Shown in pieces: positions 25,492 to 27,164 of a stretch of 64,000 nt of DNA. The notes beneath the pieces were generated by a model. The model saw only the letters and a program-made list of their open reading frames with translations. It was not told the origin of the DNA and did no database searches. The DNA is taken from assembly GCF_001638985.1 (NCBI RefSeq), contig NW_017265145.1:744001-808000 (forward strand), in the 5' to 3' direction. The stretch is from Phycomyces blakesleeanus NRRL 1555(-). Lineage: Eukaryota > Mucoromycota > Mucoromycetes > Mucorales > Phycomycetaceae. How positions within the stretch are numbered: position 1 is the first letter of the stretch; each line of letters begins with the position of its first letter. The position numbers and the translations under genes are program-made.

Positions 25492-26373
25492 TTATGCCTC
25501 AACAGCAGCGGGGGCAGCGGGGACAGGAGCAGGAGTGAAGTCCTGGACAATGGGCTCCTCAACATCGGTCTCCTCCTTGGGTTCAAGGATAGTGACAATA
25601 TCGGGAAGAGTGTTCTTGGGTCCATTGCGGCCGGTAGGATCACTGTCAAGCATGATCTTGACCTTGATACCGAGGACACCCTGACGCAACATAACGTGGC
25701 GAACAGCAGTGGTGATGAAATCACGAGCGGGCTGGCCGGAGTGGATCATGAAACCATCGCTGAACTTCATGGCCTTGGCGCGGGCAGCACGGAGCTTACC
25801 GGACACAACAACCTCGCAACCCTTGGCGCCAGACTCCATAACGAAGCGGACGACACCGTAGCATGCACGACGGACAGCAAGACCGTTGAGGAGCTTGTAC
25901 TTGACAGACTCGCACTGGGCAATGGCGCAGAGACCACGGTTCTGGACACGCTCGGCGTAGAGCTCAACAGCGTTCTCGGCGAACTTGAAACGCTTCTGGA
26001 CGAGGAAGGTCAATTCACGGATGCGACGACCCTTCTCACCAAGAACGTTCTGGGTGTGTGTGGCACGGATGATGATCTCAGTGCGGGCGGGGGTGACACG
26101 GACCTCAACACCAGCATAACCATCCTCAGCGAGTTCACGAGTGAAGTATTCATTCAACTCGGCGTAGAAGACACCATCGGCGACCTAGAAAGACAAGGTT
26201 GTCAGTGCAATGGCCAATATAATCTAACACACGTTTAGATAATCGATCGACTTACAAACTAGGTTGGCGGACAGAAAGTTGGATTCATATACATATTGGT
26301 TAGCTCATCAATCCATCCATGCATCAATCCATCAGTGTCTAACCTTTCTCTTCTTGGAGATTTGGGCAGCCAT
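25492..26373 (-). CDS. RPS3: 40S ribosomal protein uS3 (RPS3)
   Basis: Coding exons are 26344-26373 ([10 protein letters not shown]), a 3-nt microexon 26256-26258 (TTT, Phe) and 25492-26184. Total 241 aa. Family landmarks: [18 protein letters not shown], the KH domain with [55 protein letters not shown] and [14 protein letters not shown]. It lies at the mRNA entry side of the 40S subunit. Without the microexon the protein would read KRKVADG and lose the otherwise invariant Phe of KRKFVADG. The last exon is noticeably richer in G+C than its surroundings and uses codons such as CGT, AAG and CTC, as expected of a highly expressed gene. Confidence 0.97.
26256..26258 (-). other. 3-nt microexon of RPS3 (one Phe codon)
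   Basis: On minus the sequence reads CCAACCTAG|TTT|GTAAGTCGATC: a good acceptor, three bases, a perfect GTAAGT donor. Flanking introns are 85 nt (26259-26343) and 71 nt (26185-26255). It supplies the Phe conserved in uS3. Confidence 0.82.
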
Positions 26374-26915: not shown

Positions 26916-27164
26916 ATGTCAGATATCAAGACGTATCGCAAACAAATGTCACAAACAAGAAACGGTAGCACCGAATTTATGGCCAATAGTCAAGGCTTGC
27001 AACGCACAGACGCGTCCTATATTCACCTCAGCAGAGAACAGCAGCAGCTACGAGAAGAAATTGCCCGACTCAGACAAGAAGAGCAGCAGCTGTGCGAAAA
27101 AGACGTCTGGGTCAAGAAAAACATTGTTGCCGTTAGAGAGCAAATGCACAATGAAGATAGATAA
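26916..27164 (+). CDS. Small coiled-coil protein of unknown function (82 aa)
   Basis: A single-exon open frame of 82 codons. Residues about 35-80 are a strongly predicted coiled coil, dominated by Glu/Gln/Leu/Arg heptads (LSREQQQLREEIARLRQEE, then QQLCEKDVWVKKNIVAVRE). The N-terminus is polar. I do not recognise a family. The coding look (regular heptads, no rare codons) and isolated position between two promoters make it a plausible real gene. It could also be a conserved subunit of a larger complex. It converges with the MRCK/ROCK-like kinase gene, whose stop lies 165 bases further. Confidence 0.5.
   Translation: MSDIKTYRKQMSQTRNGSTEFMANSQGLQRTDASYIHLSREQQQLREEIARLRQEEQQLCEKDVWVKKNIVAVREQMHNEDR

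Follow-up and report, generated by a model that had tools for sequence, protein, structure and literature searches.

The RPS3 locus in the window

The window, that is the whole stretch of 64,000 nt from Phycomyces blakesleeanus NRRL 1555(-) analysed here, carries on its minus strand, from 26373 down to 25492, a gene for the ribosomal protein uS3 (RPS3), referred to as copy A (Table 1). Pfam matches above cut-off to KH_2 (PF07650) and Ribosomal_S3_C (PF00189) identified the product as uS3, and uS3 entries of the PDB match the protein over almost its whole length. Read on the minus strand, the region following the coding part of exon 1 is AAG/GTTAGA ... CCAACCTAG/TTT/GTAAGT ... TCTTTCTAG/GTC (slashes denote splice junctions), with GTC GCC GAT (VAD...) as the opening of the last exon. 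Intron 1 contains a branch-like site CTAAC whose A precedes the intron end by about 41 nt, and intron 2 a branch-like CTGAC about 17 nt before its end. The original prediction had placed a TTT exon at 26258-26256 between introns of 85 and 71 nt, which upon re-reading was exact to the base. Translation of both possible products also bore out that TTT restores a Phe lost by direct joining of the exons, as uS3 with TTT has 241 aa and reads KRKFVADG, and without it has 240 aa and reads KRKVADG. Upstream of RPS3 and in divergent orientation lies a short Gln/Glu-rich open frame.

Table 1. Features of RPS3 copy A and its surroundings in the window, and location of the two other RPS3 copies of the genome.
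Feature	Position	Strand	Description
RPS3 exon 1, coding part	26344..26373	-	30 nt, 10 residues, ends with KKRK
Intron 1	26259..26343	-	85 nt, weak donor GTTAGA, acceptor CCTAG
Predicted microexon	26256..26258	-	3 nt, TTT, phase 0, codes for Phe11; in three of three paralogues found
Intron 2	26185..26255	-	71 nt, donor GTAAGT, acceptor TTTCTAG
Last RPS3 exon	25492..26184	-	230 codons and stop, to the C terminus
Short open frame	26916..27164	+	MSDIKTYRKQMSQTRNG..., 82 codons and stop
RPS3 copy B	C12:274828-275520	-	5' exons beyond 275520
RPS3 copy C	C23, locus L003 (G000:C23:648216-651782)	+	first exon upstream of 649511

RPS3 copies and splice signals

A search of the genome (53.5 Mb, 60 contigs) for RPS3 led to three copies, A in the window as well as B and C, and all three show the arrangement AAG/GT...AG/TTY/GTAAGT...AG/GTC at the same codon, with GT-AG introns on both sides of the microexon. 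Copy B reads AAG/GTACAT...TTTGTAG/TTT/GTAAGT...CTTTAG/GTC with introns of 82 and 129 nt, and copy C AAG/GTAAGC...ATTATAG/TTC/GTAAGT...TATTAG/GTC with introns of 414 and 96 nt, the codon being TTT in A and B and the synonymous TTC in C. Both splice sites at the microexon are thus kept while the lengths and much of the sequence of the introns differ among the copies, and retention of either intron leads to an early stop in all of them. Copy C has a further phase-2 intron of 94 nt after residue 46, which is absent from A and B. Two other candidates were ruled out: a longer exon at the position of TTT, as GTAAGT follows directly and read-through reaches a stop, and a zero-length recursive splice site (AG abutting GT), as TTY separates AG and GT in the three copies.

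Copies A and B lie on the same contig and are 99.6% identical in protein and 96% in coding sequence, with differences at 20 of 131 four-fold sites. A and C are separated by 58 synonymous and 4 non-synonymous codon differences (38 of 125 four-fold sites), and B and C differ at 37 of 125 four-fold sites. Some similarity above shuffles remains between intron pairs, judged by scores against shuffled sequences as naive global alignment misleads with unequal lengths, and therefore the copies are not independent samples. In each of the three intron regions the microexon motif is the only AG-NNN-GT. In the intron region of the window copy, AG-TTY-GTAAGT has a first-order expectation of about 1.6e-5, compared with about 0.010 for the less strict AG-TTY-GT; per copy, the values are about 1e-5 and 0.006-0.010 respectively, and the full motif was seen in none of 20,000 simulated regions per copy. 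A chance origin is unlikely because of this low expectation together with the same arrangement in three of the three RPS3 copies found.

The splice signals were compared with 29 reference introns obtained by spliced alignment from 12 other loci, namely one actin, three RPS23 and eight tubulin-family loci (4, 3 and 22 introns respectively); the set omits the tubulin loci L032-L035, actin-related loci other than L005 and the loci of PF00297 (ribosomal L3), for which two matches were found, each a single nearly whole stretch. The reference introns are 50-226 nt long, a range that includes the RPS3 flanking introns (71-129 nt) except for intron 1 of copy C. GTAAGT is used by three of three microexon donors compared to 10 of 29 reference donors, a contrast that is weak alone (probability about 0.04), the copies being related. 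Over the six intronic bases the microexon donors match the consensus completely (6/6; reference mean 5.2), and the exon 1 donors GTTAGA, GTACAT and GTAAGC at 4, 4 and 5 positions. Over nine bases, the microexon donors reach only 6 in each copy, because neither TTT nor TTC agrees with the consensus at any of the three exonic positions, compared to 6, 6 and 7 for the exon 1 donors and a mean of 6.8 for the 29 reference donors. The donor described as perfect in the original prediction is therefore perfect in its intronic part but not over the full nine bases. A branch-like YTRAY site was not found in intron 1 of copy C and lies 67 nt from the end in its intron 2, and just 17 of the 29 reference introns contain one. 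No enrichment of donor hexamers was seen when the window was compared with its own reversed sequence (7 GTAAGT versus 6 in the control). Among the five beta-tubulin-like loci, four (L024, L026, L027 and L028) have an internal exon of 17 nt with introns after residues 9 and 15, and for the fifth (L025) the alignment starts at residue 12; small exons thus occur elsewhere in this genome.

A simple spliced aligner (BLOSUM62, GT-AG introns at constant cost) was run with the first 60 residues of uS3 from Basidiobolus (P0014), Syncephalis (P0017) and Podila (P0056). The 3-nt exon was recovered unaided in 18 of 18 runs with the intron cost set to 8 or 12, and omitted in nine of nine with a cost of 18. 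The case thus rests on the conservation among the paralogues and not on the alignment score, and these runs show how the 3-nt exon would escape a gene finder that penalises introns strongly.

Residue 11 in public uS3 proteins

Public uS3 proteins were fetched as the union of the best 120 of 6554 matches to a Phe-bearing query and the best 120 of 2769 matches to a Phe-less N terminus, leading to 213 sequences. They are representatives from a database clustered at 90% identity, and many carry no species name. Position 11 is occupied in 208 of the 213, by Phe in 175, Leu in 29, Ala in two and Ile in two, and exactly this residue is missing from five. The named entries examined among the 29 with Leu are yeasts. 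The Phe is hence not invariant as originally predicted, and the distribution argues that the presence of residue 11 matters more than its identity. Together with the synonymous TTT and TTC across the copies, the near-constant presence of the residue reflects a conserved coding role of the microexon.

The five Phe-less entries, four of them among the best 120 of 6554 and one added from the best 120 of 2769, belong to Apophysomyces, Helicostylum, Rhizopus stolonifer, Umbelopsis and Endogone, which by lineage look-up are all Mucoromycotina from three orders. A Fisher test of Phe-less against Mucoromycotina gave p of about 2e-7, which is illustrative only, as it counts unnamed proteins as non-Mucoromycotina, uses our own taxon assignment and includes the search with the Phe-less query. 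Seven named Mucoromycotina entries have the Phe, at the protein level only: Phycomyces, Absidia, two Dichotomocladium, Syncephalastrum, Bifiguratus and Radiomyces. Lineage look-up was made for Bifiguratus and for the genus Phycomyces (in the Mucorales), and Absidia, Dichotomocladium, Syncephalastrum and Radiomyces are presumed by us to be Mucoromycotina. The closest named protein among the best 120 of 6554 is uS3 of Phycomyces nitens (96% identical), whose C-terminal tail resembles that of copy C with few differences; this match agrees with a placement in Mucorales. No DNA encoding uS3 turned up in one scan of viral_contigs. The R. stolonifer entry (P0098) also lacks a stretch of 16 residues, and a stretch is missing from the Radiomyces entry (P0030), each probably another annotation error.

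The simplest account of the Phe-less entries, as the sequences suggest, is a microexon that is old in Mucoromycotina and often skipped by annotation pipelines, some of which would detect it while others do not, and in these records the exon has probably been missed by gene-finding programs. That such an exon is invisible to gene finders, as originally stated, fits these relatives but would not hold for the seven other Mucoromycotina entries, should their genes have the microexon. Entries of Funneliformis (P0043, P0110), Cetraspora (P0048) and, less cleanly, Paraglomus (P0026) are wrong just before the Phe, which hints that the intron between K10 and F11 may be the older one and that the intron between F11 and V12 would be a later gain in the Mucoromycotina line.

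Probable splicing of the microexon and relation to known systems

From the genomic sequence and its comparison with the paralogues, TTT is very probably a genuine, normally included coding microexon of uS3, each flanking intron being removed separately by the ordinary spliceosome, and we infer its inclusion in the mature mRNA. A single-codon microexon is the best model because it explains the paralogues, the unaided alignments at low and moderate intron cost, and the Phe-less proteins, and the original view that one intron is really two around a 3-nt exon is backed by the same observations. Recognition would proceed by intron definition, each intron being short enough to be recognised alone, the 414-nt intron 1 of copy C aside, and the full intronic match of the donor may offset the absent exonic pairing. 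Because U1 bound to TTTGTAAGT would span all of the microexon and collide with factors at the adjacent AG, removal of the two introns is probably sequential. A similar argument on clashing sites has been put forward for plant microexons (PMC8831610, in the part consulted). Our guess is that intron 2 would be removed first; this order would be favoured because in human cells, according to the section of PMC6224609 used here, the exon junction complex (EJC) represses donors within 15 nt of a newly formed junction. The genome encodes the EJC subunit Mago. However, an EJC deposited after removal of intron 2 would, given the usual EJC spacing, cover the 3' end of intron 1. Skipping of the microexon would be in frame and leave the protein one residue short, and would thus go unnoticed by NMD or by a gene finder.

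A single intron of 159 nt without microexon, and accordingly a uS3 that is one residue short (KRKVADG), would fall within the length range of the 29 reference introns, is what the aligner chose at high intron cost, and would agree with the five annotated Mucoromycotina proteins of the KRKVADG type. It is nevertheless very unlikely, as it leaves AG-TTY-GTAAGT in three paralogues (about 1e-5 each), including the synonymous change between TTT and TTC, unexplained, and as the residue is present in nearly all fetched uS3, the seven named Mucoromycotina entries among them. We give equally little credit to the idea that the copies agree through recent shared descent instead of selection and that the motif may be a relic. 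The close identity of A and B on one contig and the residual similarity of the intron pairs are in line with such descent. Copy C, however, has kept both splice sites and the Phe codon in spite of 58 synonymous codon differences and 38 of 125 four-fold sites differing from A, and the Phe-less annotations of Umbelopsis and Endogone suggest an older feature.

Somewhat less remote, though still improbable, is alternative splicing of the microexon, the resulting uS3 proteins with and without Phe11 differing in import or chaperone handling. Since the exon is one codon, skipping would preserve the frame, and the exon 1 donors have fewer intronic matches (4, 4 and 5) than the microexon donors (6 of 6). 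The conserved GTAAGT donor would suit constant inclusion, and ribosomal protein genes are rarely regulated by alternative splicing, which both count against two isoforms. The position of the residue would favour them: in yeast Rps3, residues 7-10 (KKRK) form the Kap60-bound nuclear localization signal (NLS) and residues 11-30 the site of the chaperone Yar1 (PMC5098186, consulted in part). In the window copy, KKRK likewise closes exon 1, residue 11 is the microexon and residue 12 opens the last exon. Alternatively spliced, codon-sized microexons are also described for NLR genes of Tuber in the portions consulted of PMC4986451 and PMC10197012. Carried further, the exon might be older than the divergence of Mucorales, Umbelopsidales and Endogonales, and might have been kept because in-frame skipping yields a second uS3 without Phe11, that is a one-residue switch in ribosome assembly, which we likewise regard as improbable. 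Loss of Phe11 would in that case turn the NLS relative to the chaperone-binding helix, and the turned NLS would alter the hand-over from chaperone to importin.

If RNA confirms the constitutive microexon that we favour, a highly conserved fungal gene depends on the correct splicing of a 3-nt exon outside animals. To our knowledge, a dedicated microexon programme arose in animals. With three natural copies that differ in their introns, RPS3 would be a handy system for studying the order of removal around a tiny exon. In addition, some public Mucoromycotina uS3 sequences probably contain a false deletion of one residue, and in phylogenetic data sets such a deletion would look like a shared character.

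In the literature searched, with most subscription journals and bioRxiv outside the search and the sources seen in part, neither a microexon in nuclear uS3 nor a microexon study in Mucoromycota was found. The comparisons that follow refer to the consulted parts of the cited papers. Codon-sized microexons of 3 bp occur in the NACHT-ankyrin (nank, NLR) genes of Tuber melanosporum (Iotti et al., 2012, as cited in PMC4986451 and PMC10197012) and are, like the one in RPS3, fungal and one codon long. They are, however, many per gene, alternatively spliced for receptor diversity and from an ascomycete, whereas RPS3, which encodes a core ribosomal protein, has a single one that the normal protein seems to require. 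The 1-nt exon of Fusarium CYP621A was similarly inferred in a fungus from protein conservation within one over-long intron and lies inside a conserved motif; in contrast to RPS3 it belongs to a P450 gene of ascomycetes, its omission breaks the reading phase, and it has been confirmed by SRA reads, while the RPS3 exon is predicted from DNA (PMC12940212). Plant APC11 and VPS55 contain 1-nt microexons backed by RNA-seq and RT-PCR (PMC8831610). As in RPS3, these are tiny coding exons conserved over long spans and missed by annotation, and the conserved GTRAGT donor of VPS55 resembles GTAAGT, but they are shorter, from land plants and supported by RNA (PMC8831610). The original remark that a 3-nt exon is near the lower limit of the spliceosome is accordingly only half right, as 1-nt exons have been verified both in plants (PMC8831610) and in Fusarium (PMC12940212). 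The 20-nt switch microexon of Trichoderma Xlr2 is likewise fungal and missing from the gene model (JGI), but it is longer, glucose-regulated and part of a transcription factor gene (PMC11121469). Human RS-exons and EJC-repressed cryptic microexons share with RPS3 a donor that follows the preceding junction within 15 nt, their inclusion being decided by a part-spliced intermediate and the EJC; they are cryptic and repressed, whereas the RPS3 microexon appears to be normal coding sequence (PMC6224609). Exons of 3 bp and 1 nt are mentioned for fungal mitochondria as well (PMC12308204), where splicing follows a different system. Tiny exons as such are therefore already known, and what is new here is the core ribosomal host gene, its three natural copies, the likely age of the exon and the one-residue gaps in the databases.
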